58,205 nucleotides of DNA, from positions 1-58,205 of the forward strand of contig JAFQCI010000131.1 of assembly GCA_017416505.1 (NCBI GenBank). The letters are read 5' to 3'. Below are positions 11,340 to 54,892 of this stretch, piece after piece. The translations under genes and the position numbers were made by a program. The notes under the pieces were generated by a model, which saw only the letters and a list, made by a program, of their open reading frames with translations, ran no database searches and was not told the origin of the DNA. How positions within the stretch are numbered: position 1 is the first letter of the stretch; every line of letters begins with the position of its first letter. The DNA comes from Lachnospiraceae bacterium (GTDB lineage Bacteria; Bacillota_A; Clostridia; Lachnospirales; Lachnospiraceae).

Positions 11340-11640
11340 AAAAAAGCCCTCCTCTCTGAAAAATTTCTTTTTCAGGGACGAGAGCAAAAGCTTCGTGTTA
11401 CCACCCTAAATTCACTTATACCTCACGATATAAGCCTTATCAACTACAGATGAGAAATGATTCATCGATAGTCTATCACTATAACGGGTGAACCCGTCGC
11501 AGCCTTGGCATAACAGCTTCGGTACGCAGCTCCGAGACCATTTTCAATGGTTCCTTCTGTGCCTGTTCCCACCTAACCAGACTCTCTGTGACATATCTAA
11601 CCATTTACTCTTCTCTTCATTGCCTTTGCGTTTAACTATA
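11340..11640 (-). promoter_or_regulatory. T-box riboswitch of metG
   Basis: A roughly 300-nt leader on the minus strand ending 70 bp before metG. It has the entry motif GAAGAGAAGAGTA near 11606-11619, a stem I core, and the hallmark T-box AGGGTGGTAACACG at 11407-11394. A rho-independent terminator (complementary arms around 11384-11346 and a run of T) ends it. A plausible specifier is ATG at 11541-11539, matching the downstream MetRS. The specifier position is my assignment from sequence context; T-box identity is firm. Confidence 0.92.
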
Positions 11641-12841: not shown

Positions 12842-13198
12842 CAATATGTAATTGCGAAACTATTAAAAACTTATATTAAGTGATACAAAATAAACAAATA
12901 CATAAGCAGGTGCTTGGGCGGCCGTCGGCACTTAATGAGAGGCTTGCCTCGAATCTGGTATTATTAATGCTACTGTTTACACAGTAACCTGACACTTGCT
13001 GTCAGGTTACGTAATAGCATGATTCAGGGGTTGGTTTCTGCTTCGCGAAGCGAATTTGCATGCAGAAACCAATAGATTACTGTTCACACGAACAGTAATC
13101 CACTACGAGCCGAACGCAGCGAAAGCGTGCCTGCGATGTTTTGTTCATTTTGTATCACTTTCACATAAAATATTTTAGTTTTGCAATTGCCTATTTTA
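12842..13198 (+). repeat. Hairpin-rich repeat element, copy A (about 350 bp, inverted ends)
   Basis: The ends are inverted copies of a 50-bp sequence (12898-12842 reversed and 13141-13195), sharing TTGTTyATTTTGTATCACT and GTTTyGCAATT. Between them lie GTGC...GCAC (about 12911-12932), GAGGCttGCCTC, GTAACCTG-loop-CAGGTTAC (12984-13010), linker TGATTCAGGGGTT, TTGGTTTCTGC-...-GCAGAAACCAA (13031-13072) enclosing TTCGCgaaGCGAA, and GATTACTGTTC-acac-GAACAGTAATC (13075-13100). Copy B at 31944 keeps loops and linkers but has different, still complementary stems. There is no coding capacity. Confidence 0.8.
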
Positions 13199-19545: not shown

Positions 19546-19578
19546 GTTACTGTCCACTCGTGCCTCGTAAACAGTAAC
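19546..19578 (-). repeat. Repeat-element end hairpin, fragment D
   Basis: GTTACTGT and ACAGTAAC frame CACTCGTGCCTCGT, the reverse complement of the end hairpin of copy B at 32057-32089. Only this hairpin is present. It lies just downstream of the stop codon of the 19586 gene on the minus strand, where it could act as a 3'-end structure. Confidence 0.75.
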
Positions 19579-31191: not shown

Positions 31192-31247
31192 TATTGTTCA
31201 TTTTGTATCACTATTTCACAAAATATTTTAGTTTCGCAATCACCTAT
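31192..31247 (+). repeat. Solo end of the hairpin-rich repeat element
   Basis: A 50-bp sequence matching the right end of copies A and B (TTCATTTTGTATCACT...TTTTAGTTTCGCAATCAC) without the hairpin core. It fills the whole gap between the NUDIX and isomerase genes and supplies the last codons and stop of the NUDIX gene. Confidence 0.75.
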
Positions 31248-31788: not shown

Positions 31789-31943
31789 GCTTTCCACCTA
31801 TATCATAAACCCAGGAGACTTCCTACATTCTACCGGATTCATTCCTTTCTAACGTCCTGTCACTAAAATTATCCTTTTTATTTTATCAAAAATCTCAACA
31901 AATACCAATCCTATTCTTTTACTTTATCCTACATTAAGATATA

Positions 31944-32172
31944 ATGGTTACTGTACAGACAGCACCAAAACACTTGCTGTTTTGGTGCGTAAGAACGTGA
32001 TTCAGGAGTTCGCAGGCTCCTTTTGCGAAGCAAAACTCTAAATGAGCCTGCGAATTGTTACTGTTTACGAGGCACGAGTGTACAGTAACATATAATGATA
32101 TTACTGTGCACTCCGATGTTTTGTTTATTTTGTATCACTGTTTCATAAGATATTTTAGTTTCGCAATTACCT
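31944..32172 (+). repeat. Hairpin-rich repeat element, copy B
   Basis: Same architecture as copy A with different but complementary stems: GCACCAAA-ACACTTGCTGT-TTTGGTGC (31962-31988), linker GTGATTCAGGAGTT, TTCGCAGGCTC (32009-32019) with GAGCCTGCGAA (32044-32054) around TTTTGCgaaGCAAAA, then GTTACTGT-...-ACAGTAAC (32057-32089). It ends in the conserved CGATGTTTTGTT and 50-bp right end (to about 32172). The inverted left end seen in copy A is missing. It forms the upstream region of the XRE/HD-like gene. Confidence 0.8.
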
Positions 32173-32201
32173 ATATAATAATGCCGGAAAGGATGTGCGC
32201 T

Positions 32202-33038
32202 ATGACATTTGGAGAAAAACTTAGAACCATTCGAAAAGAACAACATATCACTCAGGAAAAACTTGCCGAATTATTAAATGTTTCCACACAAAGTATCAGT
32301 GGTTGGGAATGTGGTAAAAATTATCCTTCCACTGACCGTTTAGAAGATATTGCACAAGCATTAAATACTTCCGTTGGATATCTTATGGATACTTCTTATC
32401 CAATCAAAAATTGGGAATTACGGGATGAAATGTTCACAGTCGAAAATATGTACCAACATGTTTTAAATCATATACTTTCATGCAATCTTACACAATGTAA
32501 AAATGCACTCCCTTTGATGATGGAATTACATAAAAATCATATTAGAAATGGAAAATCTTATACTCCATATGTCAGCCATCCACTTATGATGGCATGGCAT
32601 GCATTTGCACTTGGAATTAAAGAGGATGACCTGATTGCCACTATCCTTCTTCATGGAATATACAGAAATTGTAATATTGCTCCGAAAGAACTCCCCATAC
32701 CTTTAAATGATAATGTACTAACGGCACTGTATTTATTACATTTTAAGCCTGATACTTTTGAAAACATAACTGTAACAAAAGAACACTATTATGAAGCACT
32801 TAAAACAAACCAGCTTGCCTGTCTTGTGCGAATTATTGATCAATGCAATAAAATTTCAACCATTGCAATGGGGTTTCCAAAAGAAAAATTATACCAATAT
32901 ATAGGAGATACAGAATGTTACGTTCTTCCTTTACTCTCATATATAGAAAATACGTATTTAGATTACTATAATATAGCATTTTTGTTAAAATATCAGATAT
33001 TAAGCATTGTGGAAAGTCTAAAGAGAACATTGGATTAA
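32202..33038 (+). CDS. XRE HTH fused to a degenerate HD (RelA/SpoT-like) domain
   Basis: A 278-aa protein and the only intact plus-strand gene here. Residues 1-65 are a Cro/CI HTH (ITQEKLAELLNVSTQSISGWECG). About 100-270 resemble the helical HD region of RelA/SpoT hydrolases (HPLMMAWHAFALGIKEDDLIATILLHG), but the HD pair reads HG, so (p)ppGpp hydrolysis is unlikely and ligand binding more plausible. The ATG at 32202 has AAAGGA eight bases upstream; the longer frame from 32055 runs back into repeat copy B. It overlaps the convergent 33035 gene by 4 bp. Confidence 0.75.
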   Translation: MTFGEKLRTIRKEQHITQEKLAELLNVSTQSISGWECGKNYPSTDRLEDIAQALNTSVGYLMDTSYPIKNWELRDEMFTVENMYQHVLNHILSCNLTQCKNALPLMMELHKNHIRNGKSYTPYVSHPLMMAWHAFALGIKEDDLIATILLHGIYRNCNIAPKELPIPLNDNVLTALYLLHFKPDTFENITVTKEHYYEALKTNQLACLVRIIDQCNKISTIAMGFPKEKLYQYIGDTECYVLPLLSYIENTYLDYYNIAFLLKYQILSIVESLKRTLD

Positions 33039-33436
33039 TCCAATGTTCCCTCATATCTTACAAAGGAACAACCTGCGTCCCTTAAATCCTGCTCTATCTC
33101 CCCTGCCATATGCTCAAACAATTCCTGAGATACTCCTATGGCAGAGGGGTATAACTGATACATCTTATTATTATAAAGAAAACGAATCGTGGCACCCTTA
33201 ACTTTCCATGTACATTGATACGTTGTTTTCAGCCTTTCTGCACGATGTTTCCATATTTCGATTTGTTGTTCCATCATTTTTAGCTTCTGCTTATCATGTG
33301 ATTTTTCATTGTTTTCACTTATTATCTCCGGGTGAAACCATTCATCACTTTCCACCCAAATCTCCGGCTCATTTCCCCTAAAACCAGCAATCTGTATCAT
33401 TCCCTTTTCTTTATCATCATTTTCATTATTATTCAT
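33035..33436 (-). CDS. Hypothetical protein paired with a TraG-like ATPase
   Basis: A soluble 133-aa protein: acidic N-terminus, a coiled-coil-like middle (DKQKLKMMEQQIEIWKHRAERL), and an alpha/beta tail. I do not recognise it. It starts 6 bp after the TraG-like gene, so the two are one operon, and it overlaps the XRE/HD-like gene tail by 4 bp. It may be a partner of the ATPase. Confidence 0.6.
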   Translation of the reverse strand: MNNNENDDKEKGMIQIAGFRGNEPEIWVESDEWFHPEIISENNEKSHDKQKLKMMEQQIEIWKHRAERLKTTYQCTWKVKGATIRFLYNNKMYQLYPSAIGVSQELFEHMAGEIEQDLRDAGCSFVRYEGTLD

Positions 33437-33442
33437 GATAGC

Positions 33443-34705
33443 TCAAACTCCCTTCTTTTTACTTATTTTCTTCCCACAATTATATGCCATCTTATATTCC
33501 GGCATTTTAGTCACACAAGTACGGTCTCCTATCCTGGCTTCATTACAACGTTGCAAAATACAAACCTGCGTTTCTTTCATTTTTATAATTTCTTCACGTG
33601 GTAAATTTGCCGCCTTAGATATATAATCCACAGTTGAAATATTTGTAGTTGGATAGAATATCTGAAATTCCATACAATCCAAAATGCTATCTGCATACAA
33701 ACCATAAAGGGCGTTTAATTGAGCAATACTTTGAAAACAAATCATATAAGAAATATTTCTGGAACGACAATTTGCTATAATTCCAGGAAAATGATTCATT
33801 TGCACACCACTGGCAAAGTCATCTATCAGGAAACGGACATGGTGTGGAAGCCGATCGCCGTTCCTACTGCATTCTGTATCGGCAAAATCCACCAATTGAT
33901 GGCATATGTCATTATAAAATAATTGTACCAATGGATACTTTGAATCGTCTATATCACTACTCACCACATATAAGATGGTTTTTGTTTCCCCAAGGCTTTT
34001 CAAATTCATTGTAGTCTGTTTTGTCATTTCCATAATATCAGAGGAACGGTATCTTTGCATACATGCCTCTAAGGTTACCACAATACTAGCCCATGTATGT
34101 TCAGAACATTGTTTCAGCCTTCCATAATCCTCCATGCCTTGAAATAACTTTCCATCTTCTTCCAATTCTAATATAAGTTCATCTATTACATCCTCTTTTT
34201 CTGGATTTTTTCCAATACTATGCATTAGTTCAAAAAATATTTCTAAATTAAAAGTCTCACCTGTTTTATTTGTTAAATGAATCCCTATCTCTATCAAAGA
34301 AGCTGCCAAGTCCCTTGCAGAAATAATCCAAAATGGATCATTTCCCGTCAAACTCTCCGGTAACAACATATTAACAATACGAAGAATATCATCCTTATTC
34401 TTTATACTATCAAAAGGATTGTATCGTACACATGATGCTTCAAAATGGATGGTATCAAATTTAAATACCTGATACCCTTTTTCCACAAAATAATCCTTGG
34501 TACATCGATACAAATACCCCTTTTTGTCATCTACAACCATAGAACAATTGGTACTTAACAATAGATTAGGCAACAAATTTGAAAATGTTTTTCCACAGCC
34601 AGGTGGGCCTATTACAGCCATATTTGCATTTCCCCCAACAGGAACGTTAACAAGTATGTCATTCGCAATAGCCACCGGAATGGTTTCTTCTATTTTTTTA
34701 CTCAA
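33443..34705 (-). CDS. Short VirD4/TraG-like coupling-protein ATPase
   Basis: About 420 aa, a conjugative coupling-protein-type ATPase with Walker A GPPGCGKT at residues 33-40 (about 36-43 if counted from the ATG) and Walker B VRFLIDDFAS. It also has TraG-type stretches such as MVVDDKKGYLYRC and RSRNISYMICFQSIAQL. It lacks the N-terminal membrane domain of usual 600-aa members and no other conjugation genes are nearby. GGAGG abuts the ATG at 34714, leaving no spacer, but is eight bases from a TTG at 34705, which I prefer. It may be an orphan of an integrated element or serve a non-conjugative role. Confidence 0.78.
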   Translation of the reverse strand: MSKKIEETIPVAIANDILVNVPVGGNANMAVIGPPGCGKTFSNLLPNLLLSTNCSMVVDDKKGYLYRCTKDYFVEKGYQVFKFDTIHFEASCVRYNPFDSIKNKDDILRIVNMLLPESLTGNDPFWIISARDLAASLIEIGIHLTNKTGETFNLEIFFELMHSIGKNPEKEDVIDELILELEEDGKLFQGMEDYGRLKQCSEHTWASIVVTLEACMQRYRSSDIMEMTKQTTMNLKSLGETKTILYVVSSDIDDSKYPLVQLFYNDICHQLVDFADTECSRNGDRLPHHVRFLIDDFASGVQMNHFPGIIANCRSRNISYMICFQSIAQLNALYGLYADSILDCMEFQIFYPTTNISTVDYISKAANLPREEIIKMKETQVCILQRCNEARIGDRTCVTKMPEYKMAYNCGKKISKKKGV

Positions 34706-34822
34706 ATTCTTCATCCTCCTTGTAGCTCTATCAAGAACTTAATTTTCTTTTATTCCTTTATCTGTCCTTACTATACAAAAAAAAGTTCTTTTTCACCACA
34801 AAGTTGTATTTGAATTTTCATC

Positions 34823-35098
34823 TTATTTTTCAAGCTGTACTTGAAATAACTTTTCAATCGCTTCGATTATGGCTTCACTTCCCAAAGAACAATCCAAACA
34901 AAGGTGATAATTTTCTTTTTCACCCCACTTCTGGTTTGAAACAAGTTCATAATATTCTGCTCTTGCCTTGTCGCTGGCTTTTATTCTACGTTCTGCCTCC
35001 TTACGCTCATCGTGGTAAATATTCATAATATTATCCACTTTATATTCCATTGGCGCATATAAGAAAATCTTAATCACATTTTCATATTTTTTTTGCAT
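34823..35098 (-). pseudogene. Detached C-terminal half of the cytidylate-kinase-like domain
   Basis: A 91-codon frame (KKYENVIKIFLYAP...YYELVSNQKWGEKENYHLCLD) that is the second half of a cytidylate-kinase-like domain. The first half ends the MATE gene upstream in another frame. The break is at a run of eight A residues (35094-35087). Loss of one A would join the frames as DAKKYENV. Compared with related MATE-kinase fusions, about 30 residues including the GRxAD motif also seem missing, which suggests a deletion. Confidence 0.7.
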
Positions 35099-36701
35099 CC
35101 AAAGATAAATACAAGGAATAACTATCCTGTTCCGTTAAATTATCCGCATAATTTTTATCCAGTCCACGACGTTTTGCTTCCAACATGGAAAGTTCTTTAT
35201 CGTAAAATTTAATTCCAAGTTTTTCAGCAAGCATTTTTCCAATGCGTTTTCCATTTGTACCATGTTCTCTGGATATGGTTATGATAATTTGTTTCTTTCC
35301 AGCCGGACTTACATGTGTCTTCGCCTCTTCCATCCCATTGATTTTCTTGTTTTGAGCCTGTTTTAAAAAGATAAAAGCAAAAATACAAGTCAAAATTTCT
35401 GCAATCGGGAAGGTCCACCACACAAGATTTAAAACATCAGATGACAAGGTAAAAAGATAGGCAACCGGAAATACAAATACTACCAATCGAAGCAATGCAA
35501 GAATAAATGGTTTTCCTGCATATCCTAATGCCTGTAGTACTCCTTGAACTGCCACTGAAAATCCCATAAATACAAAACTCAAAGCTGCAATTCTTGTTGC
35601 CTTGGCACAAACATCCACAAGAGCAGCTGCAGAACCACCAGACAACGCAAACAGCTCAGAAAGTGGTTTCGCTATGATTTCAAACAATATGGTAATAATA
35701 AAGGTTGTAATCAACGTATCCATGATACCATATTTTACACATTCCTTTGCACGTTTCTTACTCTTCATACCATAATTGAAAGATAAAATCGTAATAATGG
35801 TATTGGATAAACCAAAGGCAGAAAACAGTGCAATCTGTTGTATCTTATAATAGATACCAAAAGAACCAACAAGAACCGTTGAATCTACATCGGCACTTCC
35901 AAGAATGGCATTCATACCGGCCATCATAACAGAAAGCAATGCCTGCATAAAGGCAGCAGAAATACCGATTTTATAAATTCCTTTGATAATTCCCCACTTA
36001 GGACGAATGTATTTTACATTTCCTCCAATTTCTTTGTTTACAAGGTAATGAAATGCCATTGCAACAAAAAGAGAAATAAACTGTCCAATGATGGTAGCCC
36101 ATGCAGCACCTACAACACCCATTTTCAATGGGAAAATAAATACATAATCTAAGATAATGTTTGCCAATGCTCCTGAAATTTGTGCAATGGTAGAATACAT
36201 TGTCTTTCCGGTTGCCTGAAGAAACCGCTCATAAATCGTAAACCCAATCGAGCCTAGCGAAAAGCAGGTACAAATCGATAAATAAGAAGTACCCATTTCC
36301 AATACATCCGGATTGTTTGTAAAAAGTCCTATAAACCATTCGGATAAGAATATTCCAAACAGTAAAAAGACTGCATAAATAACCAGTGCCAAAAAGATAC
36401 CATTTCCTGCAACCTGATTCACTTTTTCCCGATTTTTTTCTCCGAGGCTCTTAGATAAAAGTGCATTTAAGCCAACACCGGTTCCTACACCTATAGCAAT
36501 AATCATAATCTGAATTGGGAAAGCAATAGTTAATGCCTCATTAGCAAGTGCCCCATCCCCTTTCATATTAGCTACAAAAATACTGTCCACTACATTGTAC
36601 AATGCCTGCAATACCATTGAAATAATCATTGGTAAGCCCATCTTCCAAAAGAGCTTTTTTAACGGTTCTACCGCCATTTTGTTTTGTTTCACCTGTTCCA
36701 T
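35082..36701 (-). CDS. MATE exporter fused to the first half of a cytidylate-kinase-like domain
   Basis: A 539-aa protein: a 12-helix MATE transporter (about 1-450), then a cytosolic kinase-like start with P-loop-type IITISREHGTNGKRIGKMLAEKLG. MATE proteins with cytidylate-kinase-like tails are recurrent in Lachnospiraceae, but their combined function is unknown. The tail is cut at DAKKI by a frameshift in an A8 tract; the rest is at 34823-35098. AAAAGGAGG precedes the ATG. A promoter and terminator-like leader lie upstream at 36730-36823. Confidence 0.85.
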   Translation of the reverse strand: MEQVKQNKMAVEPLKKLFWKMGLPMIISMVLQALYNVVDSIFVANMKGDGALANEALTIAFPIQIMIIAIGVGTGVGLNALLSKSLGEKNREKVNQVAGNGIFLALVIYAVFLLFGIFLSEWFIGLFTNNPDVLEMGTSYLSICTCFSLGSIGFTIYERFLQATGKTMYSTIAQISGALANIILDYVFIFPLKMGVVGAAWATIIGQFISLFVAMAFHYLVNKEIGGNVKYIRPKWGIIKGIYKIGISAAFMQALLSVMMAGMNAILGSADVDSTVLVGSFGIYYKIQQIALFSAFGLSNTIITILSFNYGMKSKKRAKECVKYGIMDTLITTFIITILFEIIAKPLSELFALSGGSAAALVDVCAKATRIAALSFVFMGFSVAVQGVLQALGYAGKPFILALLRLVVFVFPVAYLFTLSSDVLNLVWWTFPIAEILTCIFAFIFLKQAQNKKINGMEEAKTHVSPAGKKQIIITISREHGTNGKRIGKMLAEKLGIKFYDKELSMLEAKRRGLDKNYADNLTEQDSYSLYLSLDAKKI

Positions 36702-36729
36702 TAAAAATCCTCCTTTTCTTTTTGGGCAT

Positions 36730-36770
36730 AAAAAAAGTGTAAACCCAATTATCTCTAACTGGATTTACAC
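36730..36770 (-). terminator. Attenuator-like terminator in the MATE leader
   Basis: GTGTAAATCCA pairs with TGGGTTTACAC (one mismatch) around a loop of about 14 nt, then seven T residues. It lies between the promoter and the MATE ribosome site. Transcripts would stop before the gene unless the hairpin is disrupted, so this looks like an attenuator. The leader of about 60 nt shows no riboswitch I recognise. Confidence 0.65.
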
Positions 36771-36793
36771 ATTTCTGCCACTCGTCGACCATT

Positions 36794-36823
36794 ATTCTAC
36801 CATAAACTCTTTTAAAATTTCAA
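36794..36823 (-). promoter_or_regulatory. Promoter of the MATE-kinase gene
   Basis: TTGAAA (36823-36818), an 18-bp spacer and TAGAAT (36799-36794) on the minus strand, with transcription expected from about 36788. Confidence 0.6.
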
Positions 36824-36836
36824 GATAAAATTTTAG

Positions 36837-36894
36837 CATGATTCAGTAGTTGGTTTTTGCTGTTACTGTTTACAAGGCACGAGTGGACAGTAAC
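36837..36894 (+). repeat. Truncated hairpin-rich repeat, fragment C
   Basis: It contains the linker CATGATTCAGTAGTTGGTTT and the end hairpin GTTACTGT...ACAGTAAC (36862-36894), but lacks hairpin 1 and the partner arm of hairpin 2. It overlaps the 3' end of the histidine-kinase gene and provides its last ten codons and stop. Confidence 0.75.
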
Positions 36895-37819
36895 TTTTTG
36901 CCCTCATCTGAATCACAAACTCTTTCTTATAACCATTTACCTGCTCCTTCATCCACAACTTACCACCATGTTTTTCAATAATTGCCCAGGAAATGGCAAG
37001 TCCAAGACCATTTCCTTTTCCGCTGGTTCTTGAATCATTCCCACAGACAAAAGGCTGAAACATATTTTCTTTCAGTTCTTTCGGAATTGGATTTCCATCG
37101 TCTGCGATTGTTACAAAAGCAAATCCTTTTTCTGAATAAACTCTTATCCTGACACAGGTTCCTTTTGGATTATGCTTATAGGCATTTACGATTAGATTAT
37201 CTATCCCACGACGAAACTCCTTTTCATCCAGTTCACATAAGATTTCTTCCTCTGGAATTTCAATGTGAAGTTCCATCTCTCTATCCTCAAATTCAGAATA
37301 ATGAATGGCTGCTAAATCACGAACAAGAACACACAGGTTTGTTTCTTTTTTCTGTAACAAATATTGATTCGTGCCTAATTTTGAATACATAAAAAGTGTA
37401 TCTATCAACTCGTTCATATAAAGGCTTTTTTGGTAAATAATATCCAAAATCTCCCCTTGTTCCTCTTCTTTGATTCTCCCCTCTTTTAACGCCACCGCAA
37501 AGCCTTGTACCGATGTCATAGGTGTTTTTAAGTCATGGGCAATACAGGAATACAAAAGGTTTTGCTCCTGTACCTGACGTTTGCTTTCTGCATCAATTGC
37601 TTTTTTTGCAAATCTATAAAAAATGAATGCACCAACAAAAAATATGAAAAAAGAACAAAATAAATCCAAGAATATTAAAACTTTCGTCATGGTTTCATTT
37701 TCCATATATTTCACAAGAAGTATATCTTCAAAAGTGCTATCAATGGCAGAACCAACTACAGAAATTCCAAAAGAACAAAGTACAAAATATTTTCCAATTA
37801 AAAATTTAAGTTTTTTCAT
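36863..37819 (-). CDS. Sensor histidine kinase, C-terminus supplied by a repeat
   Basis: A 318-aa kinase with two TM helices (about 8-25 and 47-69) and almost no external loop, so it is probably an intramembrane or cytosol-facing sensor. Phosphoacceptor is H95 (IAHDLKTP); ATP boxes are NLIVNAYKHNP and GNGLGLAISWAI. The ATG at 37819 follows GGAG and overlaps the response-regulator stop by 14 nt, so they are co-translated. The final residues SYCPLVPCKQ are encoded by repeat fragment C. The catalytic core ends before that point. Confidence 0.9.
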   Translation of the reverse strand: MKKLKFLIGKYFVLCSFGISVVGSAIDSTFEDILLVKYMENETMTKVLIFLDLFCSFFIFFVGAFIFYRFAKKAIDAESKRQVQEQNLLYSCIAHDLKTPMTSVQGFAVALKEGRIKEEEQGEILDIIYQKSLYMNELIDTLFMYSKLGTNQYLLQKKETNLCVLVRDLAAIHYSEFEDREMELHIEIPEEEILCELDEKEFRRGIDNLIVNAYKHNPKGTCVRIRVYSEKGFAFVTIADDGNPIPKELKENMFQPFVCGNDSRTSGKGNGLGLAISWAIIEKHGGKLWMKEQVNGYKKEFVIQMRAKSYCPLVPCKQ

Positions 37820-38492
37820 AATTCTCCAATCTATATCCAAGTCCTCGTATCGTTTTTATGTATTCGCTCCCTATTTTATCCCGAAGACGACTGATAATAA
37901 CCCGAATCGTATTATCATCCACTGCATATTCATTCTCCCAGGCATATTCATAAATCTGCTCTTTCGTAAACACCCTCCTTGGCTGGCTCATAAAAAGCTC
38001 CAGCACTTTATATTCCACCTTAGTAAGTTCATAAGTATTTTCACCCTTTATTACCACACACTCATCACAATTTAAAACAAGAGTACCAACCTTTATCTGC
38101 CGTATTTCCTCTTTCGGATGATTTTCCTGTACTCCTATCCTGCGAAGATGCGCCCGTACCTTTGCAGCAACTTCCAATGGCTCAAAAGGTTTTGTAATAT
38201 AATCATCTGCACCCAAGTCAATTCCAAACACCCGGTCTGATAATTCTACTTTGGCAGATATGACAAGAATCGGTATATATGGTCCTTTGCGGATTTCCTT
38301 TATGATTTCATATCCATTTTTCCCCGGCATCATAATATCTACAATAGCAAGGTCTATGGATTCACATTTTAATATCTGCAACGCAGTTTCTCCATCATTG
38401 GCTTCAAAAATCTGATGATCATTCGCCTCAATATAAATCCTTAATAAACGCACAATTTCCTTCTCATCATCTGCAATTAGTATCTTCGCCAT
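37806..38492 (-). CDS. OmpR-family response regulator
   Basis: A 228-aa receiver plus winged-helix regulator with acidic pocket DDE (8-10), phospho-acceptor D52 (AIVDIMMPGKNG) and K about 101 (YITKPFEP). The C-terminal DNA-binding domain has LTKVEYKVLELFM. GAGG lies seven bases before the ATG at 38492. It is upstream partner of the kinase and follows the beta-lactamase-fold gene by about 20 bp, so all three are one operon. Confidence 0.93.
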   Translation of the reverse strand: MAKILIADDEKEIVRLLRIYIEANDHQIFEANDGETALQILKCESIDLAIVDIMMPGKNGYEIIKEIRKGPYIPILVISAKVELSDRVFGIDLGADDYITKPFEPLEVAAKVRAHLRRIGVQENHPKEEIRQIKVGTLVLNCDECVVIKGENTYELTKVEYKVLELFMSQPRRVFTKEQIYEYAWENEYAVDDNTIRVIISRLRDKIGSEYIKTIRGLGYRLENYEKT

Positions 38493-38511
38493 TGACACAC
38501 CTCAATTCATT

Positions 38512-40335
38512 TTAAATCACCCAAAACTGGTACATATCAAATAAAATAATGTTTATGAGCATACAGATTGCCATCAATGCTGTAATAATATATTTTACCT
38601 TTTCAGATTTTTTATCTGCAATTCCCTTTTTACACCAATAAACCATTCCAAAAATCACACATAGTATCAGCAATATTGTCATCACTGTAACGATTCCACT
38701 TTGCACCATATAACTGGTAACCGAACCCATATCTCCGGTAGCATTTCCGTTACTTAATCTTAAAAACATAATCAGAACATCTGTAAAAACAATCGTCATA
38801 AGGAAAGATACTGCATAGTTCCATTTTCTGAAAGGATGCTTTTTCTCTATTCCCTTTCTCTTCCAAACAGCCTTTTGAATCGGTGACCAAATCAATCCCC
38901 CTCCAAAGAAAGTAACGATTCCATATACACCTGCCAGCAGAAAAAAGAAAAAGCAAATTAACTTTGCAACCGTTTCTTCTGTAGAAATGAAACAATCTCC
39001 ATATCCTCCATATATGTAATCACCTTCCTGATACCACCAGGAATTAAGATCCTCTTTCGCAAATTCTGTTATCCCGATTACTCCTGTAAAAGACAATGGC
39101 CCTTCTTTTATGGAGCGGGCAAATGTAAGGAAACCCTTCGGTACTTTACGCTCTATATCTGCCAGTTCCGAATCCTCAAACTTTCCAAAAATCAGCTCAT
39201 ACATATCATAATTATACACCTGCTCATGAGCCTGATTCGTCATAACGACCATTCCAATACCACTTTCCGGATGAAATTGAAGCATACTGGAACATCCCAT
39301 GGTATTGCCAGCATGTCCTAAGGTTTCTACAGCAAACTGATTTGCAAAAAATCCATGATAATTATTCGGAACTTCGCTACTTCCATAATAACTGGTAGCA
39401 GTATACATTAAATCCAACGTTTCCTGTTTTTGAAACAAAGGGCAGGAAGTGTTTGAGTTTGGCGTAACAGCCCTTGCAAAGGTTAGAAAGTCTTCCATTG
39501 TCCCTGTTGCACTACCGGCAGGATATATCATAACGTAACTGATTCCATTACCGGGTATTTTATCTCCATAAATATCATACCACTTTAAATCTTCTCTTTG
39601 TTGTTTCACCCATACATTGTCCTGCATAAGTGCACCTACTGAAGTATGCTCCATTCCGAGGGGTTCCAATATATTCTTATGCACATACTCCACATAATCC
39701 ATACCGCTAACATTTTGTACGATGTACGCAGCCAATGCTGCTCCCCAGTTAGAATAAGCAGTTACGGTTCCCGGTTCATATACCTGTTCCGGCTGATATT
39801 TCCTTAATGTCTCCTCCAGACTGACTACTTCTTCTTCATCCGCAGTCATAATTCCCAAATACATTTCCTGAAATCCTGCCTGATGATTCATTAAATCAAT
39901 CATAGTAATCTTTTTATCAAAGTTAAGATTTTTAAGAAAATCATCCGGCAAATAAGTTCTGATATCTTCCTCTAAATCCAGTTTTCCCTGTTCCATAAGC
40001 TGCATTACACTAATCCAGATATAAAGTTTAGAAACAGAACCCCACTCAAACACCGTATTTTCATCTACAATTTGGGCATTTTCCTTGTCTTCATAACCGA
40101 AATCATTCCGATAAATCACACCATTTTCGTCATATACCGCAACACTCATACCTACTGTAGTTTCACTATGTTCTTCTACAAAATTTTCAATCCCATAGGA
40201 AACATCATCGTATGATATTCCAGATGGCACTTCCTGTTCCCTCTCCTCCTTCTCTCCGGCATATATCACTGCTAAATTCTGAAACATCAGTATGCCTAAC
40301 ATACACATACTTATTATTTTTTTTAATTTTTTCAT
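38512..40335 (-). CDS. Beta-lactamase-fold serine hydrolase with C-terminal membrane domain
   Basis: A 607-aa exported protein of the class C beta-lactamase/CubicO family with a signal peptide. Active-site S100-V-S-K103 (WGSVSK) and Y194-S-N (AYSNWG) are present, and HAGN is a candidate third motif. Three or four TM helices follow from about residue 445. Such membrane-linked members act as peptidases or esterases on cell-wall or peptide substrates. Co-location with a two-component system suggests induction by envelope damage; beta-lactam resistance is not shown. Confidence 0.85.
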   Translation of the reverse strand: MKKLKKIISMCMLGILMFQNLAVIYAGEKEEREQEVPSGISYDDVSYGIENFVEEHSETTVGMSVAVYDENGVIYRNDFGYEDKENAQIVDENTVFEWGSVSKLYIWISVMQLMEQGKLDLEEDIRTYLPDDFLKNLNFDKKITMIDLMNHQAGFQEMYLGIMTADEEEVVSLEETLRKYQPEQVYEPGTVTAYSNWGAALAAYIVQNVSGMDYVEYVHKNILEPLGMEHTSVGALMQDNVWVKQQREDLKWYDIYGDKIPGNGISYVMIYPAGSATGTMEDFLTFARAVTPNSNTSCPLFQKQETLDLMYTATSYYGSSEVPNNYHGFFANQFAVETLGHAGNTMGCSSMLQFHPESGIGMVVMTNQAHEQVYNYDMYELIFGKFEDSELADIERKVPKGFLTFARSIKEGPLSFTGVIGITEFAKEDLNSWWYQEGDYIYGGYGDCFISTEETVAKLICFFFFLLAGVYGIVTFFGGGLIWSPIQKAVWKRKGIEKKHPFRKWNYAVSFLMTIVFTDVLIMFLRLSNGNATGDMGSVTSYMVQSGIVTVMTILLILCVIFGMVYWCKKGIADKKSEKVKYIITALMAICMLINIILFDMYQFWVI

Positions 40336-40466
40336 ATTCTCCACCATTCCTTAATTTTTCCACAATGGTTCAAAAATCCCGTAAACCTGCTTGTGTGCTT
40401 TTATTATATTGGTGGATACTTAATTTAAAAATTGATTTATATTAACCGAATATTAAAATTTCATGT

Positions 40467-42140
40467 TTAAAAATACCTCTCCAATATTCTTTTCATTTCT
40501 TCTCTTGCTTCTTCAATTTCCTCCGGGTCACCGTTTTCTAAAATACCTTCAAAAATAGATATATTTTGCCCCATGATTTCTCTCTCCATCCCCAGAAGTT
40601 CCTCGTATAGTTCTTCTGCCCGAAACAGTACCAGCTTATTTTCCTCCTGCTCTCTTGGAGGAAGTTTTAAATAATCAAGTTCTGCAAACCGCCTCTCGGC
40701 TTCTTCTTCCGAAATATCAAACTCTGAACTTCGGATAATCTTCTTCACCACTTCTTCTGTTGTATTGGATTTTACAATTACCTCCAACAAAGAATTTACA
40801 TCATAGGTAAAGGTAACACTTACACTTTCCTGTCCTGCCTTATTAGGCGGAACCTGAATCGTTATCTTGTCAATAAACAAATTTTTATCTACCAGCCGGT
40901 TCTCACCTTGGTATATGTTTATCTCTATCTCTTTTTGGTAATCATGTACCGTAACATATTTCCTTGTACGACTATATGGTATGGTTGTATTTCTTTGAAT
41001 AATCGGACTGTAGATATCGGAACTGCCATTCCGGTTTCGTATTCCAATGCCTAATGTATATGGGCAAACATCGGTTAATATCAGGTCTTCTAAGGCTTCG
41101 TTTCTCTCCTTCATGGCAGCCTGCATACAGGCACCTATCACAACCACCTCATCCGGATTTACGCTATAATCAGGAATTTTCCTTAATAGGGTTGCAACAT
41201 AGGAGCGGACTAATGGAAGTCTTGTACTTCCTCCAACCATAACTACCCGGTCAATGTCTTCAATGCTTAATTTAGAATTCCTTAAACTTCTTGCAATAGG
41301 TTTCTTGATTCGTTCTAACAACTCTTCGCAGTCATCCTTAAATTCTTCTCTGCTTATTATCATTTCCAGAATCTCATCCTCAACCTTACATTTCATCACC
41401 GCCGACATATGGTCGGATAGCTCTAATTTACAAAGTTCTGCCTGCTTACTGATATGATTTCTCGTCTGTACCGATAACGATTCCTTGTCCAATCCCTTTT
41501 CTTGCAAAAACTTATGAAAAATGACCTTGGTAAAATCTTCTCCGCCTAAAAAGTTATCCCCGGCTACACAATGCACCTCCATGACTCCATCCTCTAATTC
41601 AAGCAAGGAAACATCAAACGTTCCGCCACCTAAATCAAAGACCATAATTTTAGTGCTGTCCTGACAGTTGTTGATTCCATATGCAATGGCTGCTGCCGTT
41701 GGTTCACTAATAATTCTCTCTACCTTTAGTCCTGCAAGCTTTCCTGCCATTTTTGTAGCCTTCCGCTGATGTTCATTAAAATATGCCGGAACGCTGATAA
41801 CTGCTTCCGTTATCTCTTCTTTAAGATAATTTTGGGCATCTTCCTTTAAAGAACGTAACACCAAGGCAGATAAATCGGTTGGAGTATATTCCTTTCCAAA
41901 CATATTCCAGGTTTTTGCAGTTCCCATATCTCTTTTAAACACTTCAACAGTTTCCTTTGGATTGGTAATTCGTCTTTCCTTGGCTGTTTCCCCTACATAT
42001 ATGGTTCCATCCTTGTCAAAACTAACGACAGAAGGTGTAAGCTTGTTTCCTAGTCGGTTAGGAATGATGGTTGCTCCCTTCTCCTCGTCAAAATAAGCAA
42101 TCAAGCTGTTGGTTGTTCCCAAATCTATGCCTACTATCAC
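40467..42140 (-). CDS. Hsp70-family chaperone, HscC-like
   Basis: A 557-aa Hsp70 with a full nucleotide-binding domain (GIDLGTTNSLIAY, FDLGGGTFDVSLL, MVGGSTRLPLVR) and a shortened substrate-binding part, as in HscC. The start is GTG at 42140, overlapping the stop of the TPR-like frame (GTGA). AAAGGGTGA is the ribosome site. Hsp70s of this type assist specific client proteins with dedicated J-proteins. Its neighbours, another HscC-like gene and a TPR protein, are damaged. Confidence 0.9.
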   Translation of the reverse strand: MIVGIDLGTTNSLIAYFDEEKGATIIPNRLGNKLTPSVVSFDKDGTIYVGETAKERRITNPKETVEVFKRDMGTAKTWNMFGKEYTPTDLSALVLRSLKEDAQNYLKEEITEAVISVPAYFNEHQRKATKMAGKLAGLKVERIISEPTAAAIAYGINNCQDSTKIMVFDLGGGTFDVSLLELEDGVMEVHCVAGDNFLGGEDFTKVIFHKFLQEKGLDKESLSVQTRNHISKQAELCKLELSDHMSAVMKCKVEDEILEMIISREEFKDDCEELLERIKKPIARSLRNSKLSIEDIDRVVMVGGSTRLPLVRSYVATLLRKIPDYSVNPDEVVVIGACMQAAMKERNEALEDLILTDVCPYTLGIGIRNRNGSSDIYSPIIQRNTTIPYSRTRKYVTVHDYQKEIEINIYQGENRLVDKNLFIDKITIQVPPNKAGQESVSVTFTYDVNSLLEVIVKSNTTEEVVKKIIRSSEFDISEEEAERRFAELDYLKLPPREQEENKLVLFRAEELYEELLGMEREIMGQNISIFEGILENGDPEEIEEAREEMKRILERYF

Positions 42141-44368: not shown

Positions 44369-44543
44369 AGAGGATAGCGATGAGATCATCTATCGTTGGT
44401 TATGAAGCAATTGACTGTGTCGGTATACAGCCGGTTGTGGAGCCAGACCTTGGGTTATGCGATAACCTCAAACCGAATAGGTTCTTCGGAACTGAAAGAA
44501 AACGCTTTTACGGGACCTTGCTCACGCAAGGTCCTTTATTTTT
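44369..44543 (+). ncRNA. Structured RNA, possible leader or stand-alone ncRNA
   Basis: About 170 nt with helices GATA/TATC plus GATG/CATC (about 44374-44395), CTGT-...-ACAG (about 44418-44431), GGTTATgcgATAACC (about 44453-44467), AGGTTCttcgGAACT with a UUCG tetraloop (about 44479-44493), and the terminator GGACCTTG-ctcacg-CAAGGTCC (44513-44534) with a T-rich tail. The terminator ends 22 bp before a small ORF with its own ribosome site, fitting an attenuating leader; an independent RNA is also possible. I could not identify the family. Confidence 0.65.
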
Positions 44544-47179: not shown

Positions 47180-47470
47180 TAACCCCTTATTTTGAACATC
47201 AGTTCGTATTGTAATTATTTCAAGAGTTGCATATCATATAATCACTGCCAAAAAGCTTTTGACATTCTATTCTGAATGGCTTATACCTTTTGTAGTTAAT
47301 GAGTTACGGAATAATCTCATTAAAATATTTACTTGATGCCACAGACTTCCGACAGTTTTATTATGAATAAAGAAAAGGTTATCAAAAAGTATAATCCTTC
47401 TGATAAAACCTTGGAATTAATAGGATTTCCAACTAATTGGATATCCATATTACAAATAAAACCCTCCACC
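47180..47470 (+). pseudogene. Abi_2-like remnant, copy 2, with internal deletion
   Basis: This segment aligns with 51880-52323: the upstream part (AACATCAGTT...GAGTTACGGA) and the ISLKYLLDATDFRQFYYE coding part are both present, but the sequence between them is missing. The junction falls between TACGGAA and TACGGTA in the longer copy, consistent with deletion between short repeats. Further stops follow FYYE. Confidence 0.6.
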
Positions 47471-51752: not shown

Positions 51753-51881
51753 TATCTAAATGTATATCGCCATCAGCCAAAAACACAAAAAACGCTTCAC
51801 CACTTTCTAATGTCATTTTCAATTTATCATCCCAACAAAATTATGCATCTGTTTCAACTATATTTCAATCACATTTTTCTT

Positions 51882-52005
51882 GTTCCGAACATCAGTTTTG
51901 GTTACAATTATCTCAAGAGTTACATATCATATACTCACTACCAAAAAGCATTTGACATTCTTTCCTAAATGGCTTATACTTTTTGTAGTGAATGAGTTAC
52001 GGAAA
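51882..52005 (+). repeat. Repeat shared with 47183-47315
   Basis: About 120 bp with roughly 85% identity to 47183-47315 by eye (CGAACATCAGTT, AAGAGTTACATATCATA, TTTGACATTC, GGCTTATAC, GAGTTACGGA). Each copy precedes an Abi_2-like remnant, so a longer segment was duplicated and then decayed. Confidence 0.7.
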
Positions 52006-52048
52006 CTTGAGAAGCCCGTAACCCGGGCGGCTCCTGCGGGGGCCGTCT
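51996..52048 (+). repeat. Two-hairpin element, family 2, copy 1
   Basis: Hairpin 1: GTTACGG-AAACTTGAGAAGC-CCGTAAC (51996-52022). Hairpin 2: a 9-bp stem GGCGGCTCC/GGGGCCGTC with loop TGCG (52026-52047). Copy 2 at 52370 has the same loops but different stem sequences that still pair. Confidence 0.75.
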
Positions 52049-52099
52049 TGTTATTTATGCAGGTAATTTCGGAGGTGATTTATCATCTTACCGCACATA

Positions 52100-52323
52100 A
52101 GAAATTGCATATTCCCAAAATAAACTCCAGATACCAGCAAGGCAAATCAGATTTATTCGCTACGGTAATCTCATTAAAATATTTACTTGATGCCACAGAC
52201 TTTCGACAGTTTTATTATGAATTAAAAAAGGTCTTCAAAAAGTATAATCCTTCTAATAAAACCTTGGAATTAATGGGATTTCCGACTAATTGGATGTCCA
52301 TATTACGAATAAAAGTTTATTAG
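52100..52323 (+). pseudogene. Abi_2-like C-terminal remnant, copy 3
   Basis: The longest remnant: HIPKINSRYQQGKSDLFATV, ISLKYLLDATDFRQFYYELK and ELMGFPTNWMSILRI before TAG at 52321. FATVxxLKYLL and MGFPxNW are typical of the Abi_2 (PF07751) end. The frame runs upstream into the duplicated non-coding segment and family-2 hairpins, with no true start. Confidence 0.65.
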
Positions 52324-54733: not shown

Positions 54734-54755
54734 TCTTGTCACCGCTTTCTTTTTT

Positions 54756-54853
54756 AGGGAACTTTTATGCTATATATTATATACAAAAGTTCCCTAATTA
54801 TCAAGAATTATTTAGGGAACTTTTTGATGCATTTTTTCACACAAAAGTTCCCT
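54756..54853 (-). promoter_or_regulatory. fic promoter with four operator half-sites at 29-bp steps
   Basis: AGGGAACTTTT or its complement occurs at 54756-54766, 54785-54795, 54814-54824 and 54843-54853, alternating in orientation with exact 29-bp centre spacing, so two large palindromes. The minus-strand promoter TTGATA (54804-54799), 17 bp, TATAAT (54781-54776) lies across the second half-site. Confidence 0.85.
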
Positions 54854-54892
54854 ATTATTGAATTTAGAGTAGTTGGTTCTATTATAGCAGTT

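Follow-up and report, generated by a model that had tools for sequence, protein, structure and literature searches.

Two nested non-autonomous mobile elements with covarying hairpins in a Lachnospiraceae contig

Nested elements in the window

The stretch of DNA that was analysed, further referred to as the window, covers 58,205 nucleotides of a contig from a Lachnospiraceae bacterium. Its recognizable features include a T-box leader that precedes a methionyl-tRNA synthetase gene (11371-11629, minus strand), a drum RNA (44397-44510, plus strand; 102.8 bits), an array of repeats with a 60-bp period at the very start (1-323), two similar duplicated segments around 4.7-4.9 kb apart (47186-47461 and 51879-52314, 85-95% identical depending on the piece) and, at 54755-54854, two 46-nt arms that are 76% complementary, lie 8 nt apart and both contain TAGGGAACTTTT. 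Relatives were located via the MetG protein of the window, which gave 31 loci. The nearest one, L023 (genome G001, MetG 89% identical), is from Lachnospiraceae bacterium RGIG1668 of goat cecum and shares synteny with the window, the DNA identity being mostly 81-84%; the repeat array at the window start is matched there too.

A preliminary description, made from the letters alone, had proposed that the interval 12842-13198 (copy A) is a single dispersed element of several hairpins, with a second copy at 31944-32172 (copy B) in which the stems differ and still pair. The motifs, stems and loops it quoted were all found at the positions given, and the repeat as such is real, but the interval is a composite of two separate mobile families. 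In a BLAST search with copy A, places in G001 often matched positions 4-119 of the copy directly abutting 259-355, with nothing in between, and other places matched only positions ~122-258. Copy A is thus an outer element of around 200 bp that carries an inner one. The two also occur alone elsewhere, and G001 contains ~200-bp outer versions that lack the inner element. The parts that had been taken for one unit are divided accordingly: ACACTTGCTGT, TGATTCAGG and the stems belong to the inner element, CGATGTTTTGTT and the 50-bp end to the outer one. Copy B likewise stood in part, as it holds a complete inner element with 8-bp duplications (31947-32089) and merely the right part of an outer element beside it. 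The window contains additional pieces that had not been listed: a solo outer end, two solo hairpins and an A-type remnant. The features are as follows.

12847..13191, plus strand: outer TA-flanked palindromic element, copy A, with the inner element inside (ends read)
12845-12846 and 13192-13193: TA dinucleotides flanking outer A
12847..12898, plus strand: left terminal inverted repeat of outer A
13134..13191, plus strand: right terminal inverted repeat of outer A, equal to CGATGTTTTGTT and the 50-bp end of the preliminary description
12969..13099, plus strand: inner element, A-type (cmsearch, model R1 149.3 bits; model R2, the training set of which contains this copy, 127.8 bits)
12984..13010, plus strand: hairpin H2 of A, loop CTTGC
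13031..13072, plus strand: hairpin H3 of A, core TTCGC-GAA-GCGAA
13076..13099, plus strand: terminal hairpin H4 of A
19546..19578, minus strand: B-type terminal hairpin standing alone (E), flanked by AATATGAT and GATATGAT (7/8)
31194..31244, plus strand: solo outer right end (C)
31939..31946, no strand: 8-bp target duplication ATATAATG, left of B
31947..32089, plus strand: inner element, B-type, complete (cmsearch, R1 86.3 bits, the model being free of B-type copies)
31962..31988, plus strand: hairpin H2 of B, loop CTTGC
32009..32054, plus strand: hairpin H3 of B, core TTTTGC-GAA-GCAAAA
32057..32089, plus strand: terminal hairpin H4 of B
32090..32097, no strand: 8-bp target duplication ATATAATG, right of B
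32098..32171, plus strand: right part of the outer element adjoining B, 88% identical to the end of A over 64 nt
36838..36861, plus strand: remnant of an A-type inner element, comprising the linker and the beginning of the H3 arm
36862..36894, plus strand: B-type terminal hairpin standing alone (D), flanked by TTTTTGCT and TTTTTGCC (7/8), within the A-type remnant

The inner fold consists of three hairpins. H2 has a loop of the CTTGC type and H3 a core resembling GCGAAGC, with a linker GTAAgAA..TGATTCAGG between them; H4 is terminal. Compared with dinucleotide shuffles, both A (-141.5 kcal/mol, z -12.5) and B (-76.9 kcal/mol, z -5.6) fold stably. A search of the window with the broader model R2 returned A and B only; the fragments C, D and E were not reported. 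Composites of inner and outer element were found in G001 as well, a similar one in contig C60 (L032) and one with a shortened left part in C23 (L034). When the window was compared with these loci by BLAST (matches above 120 bases, E <=1e-20), the match was limited to the element and the flanks remained unmatched, on the basis of which the composite seems to have moved as one fused unit. The behaviour of these elements is thereby modular: a MITE within a MITE that apparently moves in fused form, hairpins that remain alone between 8-bp repeats, and insertion of an IS4-family element into the MITE ends (see below).

Copy B lies near the left edge of a stretch of around 8.5 kb (31893-40469) that carries a gene for a T4SS coupling protein (33443-34714) and that, the inner element itself excepted, has no match in the 40 kb compared of the syntenic G001 contig C55.

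Target duplications, copy number and distribution

The inner element has terminal inverted repeats (GTTACTGTTCACAC type), which in most full copies are present on both sides, a target duplication with a fixed length of 8 bp and a dispersed, multi-copy occurrence at many unrelated sites, and it is too short to contain a transposase gene; these are the characteristics of a MITE. The duplication was analyzed in two sets. Among the 15 full copies of G001 and the window, small shifts allowed, it was 8/8 in nine, 7/8 in four and 5/8 in two. One of the latter (L049) is adjoined by an IS4-family element, and across both the duplication is 8/8. For the 87 copies outside G001, the flanks at the predicted offset agreed at 8/8 in 32 and at 7/8 in 17 cases (49 of 87 at 7/8 or better), compared to 0.06% and 0.10%, together 0.16%, in a control in which the right flank was taken from another copy. 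The remaining 38 matched less well at this offset; with shifts allowed the numbers rose to 40 (8/8) and 27 (7/8), against 0.2% and 2.8% in the control. B has two copies in G001 that are 92-93% identical, and each of these has an 8/8 duplication of its own. Around the inner copy in A no 8-bp duplication was visible on reading the flanks.

The copy number in G001 is considerable. A BLAST search with the inner copy L037 gave at least 51 matches (best 40 of 64 candidates), corresponding to at least 40 distinct places, at least 16 of them of at least 110 bp, and copy A gave at least 61 (best 40 of 114 candidates). In seven other genomes copy A yielded a single weak match, in G003. The covariance-model search of Lachnospiraceae that the preliminary description had proposed reached further. 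Using the model R1, which was built from 11 A-type copies, matches were obtained in 24 of the 299 genomes of the family to which G001 belongs (G001 included), and 15 of these 24 had two or more; as at most 11 candidates were scored per genome, the copy numbers are lower bounds. One locus (L176 in G214) showed two inner-type elements in tandem, at 1348-1492 and 1501-1645, with the 8 bp AGTATATC between them and also flanking the pair.

R2 found no match in the 31 loci that were selected via MetG. The search for an empty site, also proposed earlier, gave no clean one in the syntenic blocks of G001: the gap opposite A holds around 1.3 kb of other sequence in which no element could be read, and the site of the B-type copy L097 lacks a copy in the window, but its flanks differ. 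The exact end pattern had no match in the collections of genome contigs and viral contigs, and neither had copy A in those of plasmids and phages. In the viral contigs, GTTACTGTTCACACAG was matched exactly 11 times and reading identified only L255 as a relative (R1 44.8 bits). A copy of the G125 type had no match among the plasmids but matched 11 unannotated human faecal records in the phage collection, with a coverage of at least 80% of the copy in five.

Covariation of the stems and comparison with known families

The differences between A and B that had been reported are indeed stem replacements with pairing retained: GTAACCTGACA/TGTCAGGTTAC in H2 of A against GCACCAAAACA/TGTTTTGGTGC in B, TTGGTTTCTGC/GCAGAAACCAA in H3 of A against TTCGCAGGCTC/GAGCCTGCGAA in B, and TTCGC/GCGAA against TTTTGC/GCAAAA in the inner core. 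The extent of this covariation was determined on an alignment (A4) obtained by applying R1 to 92 chosen sources, which gave 92 matches at E <=1e-5. We found that 94.3% of the 3016 pair cells paired, as compared to 61.7% after shuffling, that 36 of the 38 pairs had changed on both sides (shuffled mean 30.4) and that the covariation score was 0.727, against 0.166 for shuffled and at most 0.107 for slid alignments. As A4 was both fitted to the structure and selected by it, two further tests were made. In a set of 26 rows, one per genome or subfamily and still taken from the fitted alignment, 95.0% of the cells paired (shuffled maximum 64.0%), 36 of 38 pairs had changed on both sides (at most 33 after shuffling) and so had 301 cells (at most 103). 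The other test was independent of the alignment and used the H2 loop CA[CT]TT[GA]CTG as anchor, which retained 79 of 103 copies and dropped the 24 that lack the exact loop. These gave 31 distinct arm pairs, in which on average 7.45 of 9 positions paired, against 4.13 when arms were swapped and a maximum of 5.13 in 2000 swaps.

At short distance the picture is different. The preliminary description had named stems that change on one side only as evidence against itself, and such changes do occur in G001: of the 14 stem pairs that changed among its 11 A-type copies, eight are broken, three are G-U and three are compensated. Between subfamilies and species, however, nearly all stem differences are compensated, and loops and linkers are still recognisable. 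The broken pairs and the many truncated copies in G001 fit the decay of single insertions. In the same 11 copies changes occurred at 17 of ~836 stem positions against 48 of ~627 unpaired ones, and since stems thus change less than unpaired positions within a subfamily, the decay of single copies is not simply unconstrained. Selection on the fold, as had been suggested on the basis of two copies, is well supported across subfamilies and species (92 copies; 26 rows). This provides a measured case of a tiny transposon in which the secondary structure is conserved more than the stem sequence across many species of one bacterial family.

The outer element, which has long terminal repeats, also covaries, though less strongly than the inner one. 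It was analyzed in an alignment of 14 copies that lack the inner element (204 columns). An IS630/Tc1-type MITE would be expected to insert at TA and to duplicate it; TA was present at both expected places in six of the 14 and in copy A. In the fold of L051 (z -9.4), 12 of 72 pairs had changed on both sides, against a shuffled mean of 7.3 and with none of 500 shuffles as high, the structure being taken from this single aligned row, which favours it. The covariation score was 0.107 (0.059 shuffled) and the number of further pair types was not unusual (104 of 500 shuffles as high).

The claim of a dispersed structured mobile element that lacks an Rfam family was borne out. In Rfam 15 no family scored above its gathering score over A or B, and at E up to 1 a search with A and seven copies from other genomes recovered only ncr952 (21.9 bits against a gathering score of 100), mir-5879 and ylbH, all far below gathering. 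Among the open papers on MITEs in Lachnospiraceae, Roseburia or Blautia and on hairpin covariation, judged mostly by title and beginning of the abstract, none was found to describe this family. To our searches the MITE family is thus undescribed, with an unusually well preserved covarying structure. It may be present, unrecognised, among the palindromic candidates that a human-microbiome survey of structured RNAs has reported (PMC8040213).

MITEs with structure as such are known (PMC3049150, PMC2229807, PMC2267715). The RUP, BOX and SPRITE elements of Streptococcus pneumoniae are short, intergenic and highly paired like the elements described here, and BOX and RUP share the terminal inverted repeats and target duplications with the inner element; reportedly they are nearly absent outside pneumococcus and S. 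mitis, save BOX-related elements in S. suis (PMC3049150). RUP, for which IS630-Spn1 is the presumed source of transposase and TA the site, resembles the TA-flanked outer element in this respect (PMC2229807). The inner element differs from all three in its occurrence in many species, its rewritten stems and its 8-bp duplication. REPINs and the GTAG REPs associated with RAYT are likewise non-autonomous hairpins with conserved parts, and compensatory stem changes are reported for the former (PMC3116915) and alternative stem residues for the latter (PMC3733652). The inner element, in contrast, lacks a GTAG tag or REP doublet and has GTTAC/GTAAC ends with terminal inverted repeats and 8-bp duplications. 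Membership of the REP/REPIN group (HUH, RAYT; a GTAG or CGTC tag and no target duplication) was rejected on these features. The ERIC, Correia/NEMIS and YPAL MITEs are similar in size (~100-200 bp), terminal repeats, duplications and strongly paired transcripts, but mostly have TA ends, and multi-hairpin covariation throughout a family was not encountered in the part of the review covered (PMC2229807). Efa-1 and other stem-loop families of the Firmicutes also have conserved stem-loop positions and some double hairpins; they are listed by single species, and no Lachnospiraceae family was encountered in the part covered (PMC2267715).

Folding strand and mode of movement

The strand that folds was approached via mismatches and gene context. 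In stems that were found independently of the fitted alignment, by way of the loop for H2 and of the best Watson-Crick pairing for H3 and H4, G-A mismatches outnumbered C-T mismatches by 54 to 12 (p 1.7e-7, ignoring shared ancestry), and G-U outnumbered A-C by 32 to 21 (p 0.17). The much stronger G-U asymmetry in A4 (73 G-U against 17 A-C) was discarded as a fitting bias in view of these 32 to 21. Gene context was derived from ORFs of at least 80 aa, called directly from the sequence. Relative to the strand with the loop, the neighbours of the 14 full G001 copies were in the same direction in six cases, opposite in two and divergent in six, with no convergent pair; for the 17 partial G001 copies the numbers were 8, 3, 2 and 4, in the same order. 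In 27 loci of other genomes, five of which lie within an ORF, 20 had both neighbours and were distributed as 8, 4, 5 and 3. Taken together, neighbours that share a direction follow the loop strand in 22 cases and the other strand in nine (p 0.03), with 14 against 6 for full-length copies alone (p 0.12), and divergent sites outnumber convergent ones by 13 to 7 (p 0.26). Of the two copies in the window, B is followed on its own strand by an HTH_3 gene, which fits the direction of the loop strand, and both ORFs beside A are on the opposite strand, against that direction. These are hints that it is most probably the CTTGC-loop strand that folds, either in a leader transcript or in DNA that is single-stranded; between RNA and single-stranded DNA as the selected molecule we lean slightly to RNA.

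Considering the ends, the duplications and the covariation together, the inner element very probably belongs to a MITE family that is moved in trans by a putative DDE-type transposase and the fold of which is kept by selection. Such an enzyme would recognise the ends and insert the element with an 8-bp stagger; selection on the copies that go on spreading would keep the fold, and single insertions would lose it gradually. Because the left terminal repeat recurs directly as the left arm of H4, a deletion from one to the other would reduce the element to a 33-bp hairpin within the old duplication, by which D and E may have arisen. Against the MITE reading count the lack of a convincing autonomous element and of a clean empty site and the inner copy in A, which is not enclosed by a duplication of its own. 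As for the fold, the family is a tractable system to ask why bacterial MITEs fold at all, be it as a transposition substrate, for transcript neutrality or in host regulation.

The hairpins could act as DNA, in that folded single strands or cruciforms form part of the transposition substrate, as has been proposed for REPINs with HUH transposases. This is possible, though somewhat doubtful: the terminal repeat forms part of H4, the element maintains its fold while encoding no protein, and compensatory changes have been reported for REPINs too (PMC3116915). No transposase could be linked to the family, and the 8-bp duplications observed here argue for another enzyme. Duplications of this length point to a double-strand DDE reaction and not to HUH. 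We consider it unlikely that the inner element chiefly serves as a regulatory RNA, that is as a leader of host genes which was spread by transposition and retained at each site for its function. The G-A asymmetry, the conserved loops and linkers, the reduced change of stems inside a subfamily and the position of B would agree with such a role, and of the 14 full G001 copies for which both neighbours were called, 12 precede a gene in the same direction, ten of the 12 within 160 bp of the called start and one overlapping the start by 42 bp. The direction bias is nevertheless weaker in the other genomes, the ORFs beside A are on the other strand, and copies of a single genome show pair-breaking changes on one side and are often truncated.

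Also unlikely is a transposable structured RNA: a DDE-type MITE with a conserved RNA domain (the CTTGC-type loop, the TGATTCAGG linker and the GCGAAGC-like core) that would reside in the leaders of downstream genes, be bound as a folded transcript, for instance by a host factor or the transposase, and be inherited across Lachnospiraceae in shape and not in sequence. It is quite improbable, finally, that the arms are homogenised by template switching in replication, with no selection involved. Such correction of imperfect palindromes is an established mechanism, and the covariation of both inner and outer element would be in line with it. In 11 copies of one subfamily, however, 11 of the 14 changed pairs are uncompensated, hence correction fails to keep pace; moreover, whole stems have been replaced while loop and linkers stay, and the G-A versus C-T asymmetry is not in agreement with it either.

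To find the enzyme, three Pfam families of transposases were searched in the draft genomes that bear the MITE. IS66 (PF03050) was absent from G001 and had hits in 9 of 22 other genomes, none with a pair of MITE ends. The IS66 family has GTAA... ends and an 8-bp duplication; a derivation from it was not supported, as the readable IS66 loci end otherwise, e.g. in GTAAGTAGGTAATC. IS256 (PF00872) gave hits in 9 of 14 genomes and no end pair, which leaves IS256 as partner, the gene of L194 included, unsupported. DDE_Tnp_1 (PF01609) gave hits in 12 of 15, and in the 30 of 32 places that were read there was no end pair, with the exception of one IS4-family element (NF033592, E 3e-49). Long end pairs in L201, L324 and L325 flank host genes instead of transposases, according to ORF reading serS, an acyltransferase and carB.

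In L202 (genome G075) the IS4 gene is enclosed by GTTACTATTCACAGTC ends that are symmetric, and the outer duplication is 7/8. Outside G075, six places that were found by protein had a readable flank (L209, L210, L211, L212, L217 and L218), and in three of these (L209, L210, L218) a sequence of the GTTAC..TTCA type surrounds the element. Elsewhere than in L202 it has its own ends, CAATGTCATTWAGWTAA, and 10-bp direct repeats (ATCTCTGAAC in L209, GTTCATACAG in L210). As these ends and repeats sit inside the MITE end in L209 and L210, the IS4-family element was set aside as driver, and we take it to parasitise the ends of the MITE; L202, the flanks of which are inverted and not direct, fits this reading poorly. 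That the inner element conversely derives from the IS4-family element beside it (L202, L210) and is moved by the transposase of the latter, is very unlikely. It would account for the symmetric ends GTTACTATTCACAGTCCAATGTCATTTAG (a 31-bp inverted repeat) round the transposase gene of L202, where the 10-bp direct repeat is missing, and for the 8/8 outer duplication that inner copy and IS share in L210. Against it count the IS4-family element's own ends and repeats within the MITE end, L211 and L217, which lack the GTTAC part, and A and B in the window, in which CAATGTCATT was not found by reading.

The IS4-family element was seen inside MITE ends in L209, L210 (contig C3 of G001), L218, L202 and L206, as though these were its target; as L202 and L206 had been retrieved via the MITE end, they are not independent cases. 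REP palindromes are, going by the title of a 2006 paper by Tobes and Pareja, reportedly targets of insertion sequences as well. Finally, L203 and L204 of G075 contain 198-bp repeats with GTTACTATTCACAGTC ends, which perhaps constitute a sister MITE family.
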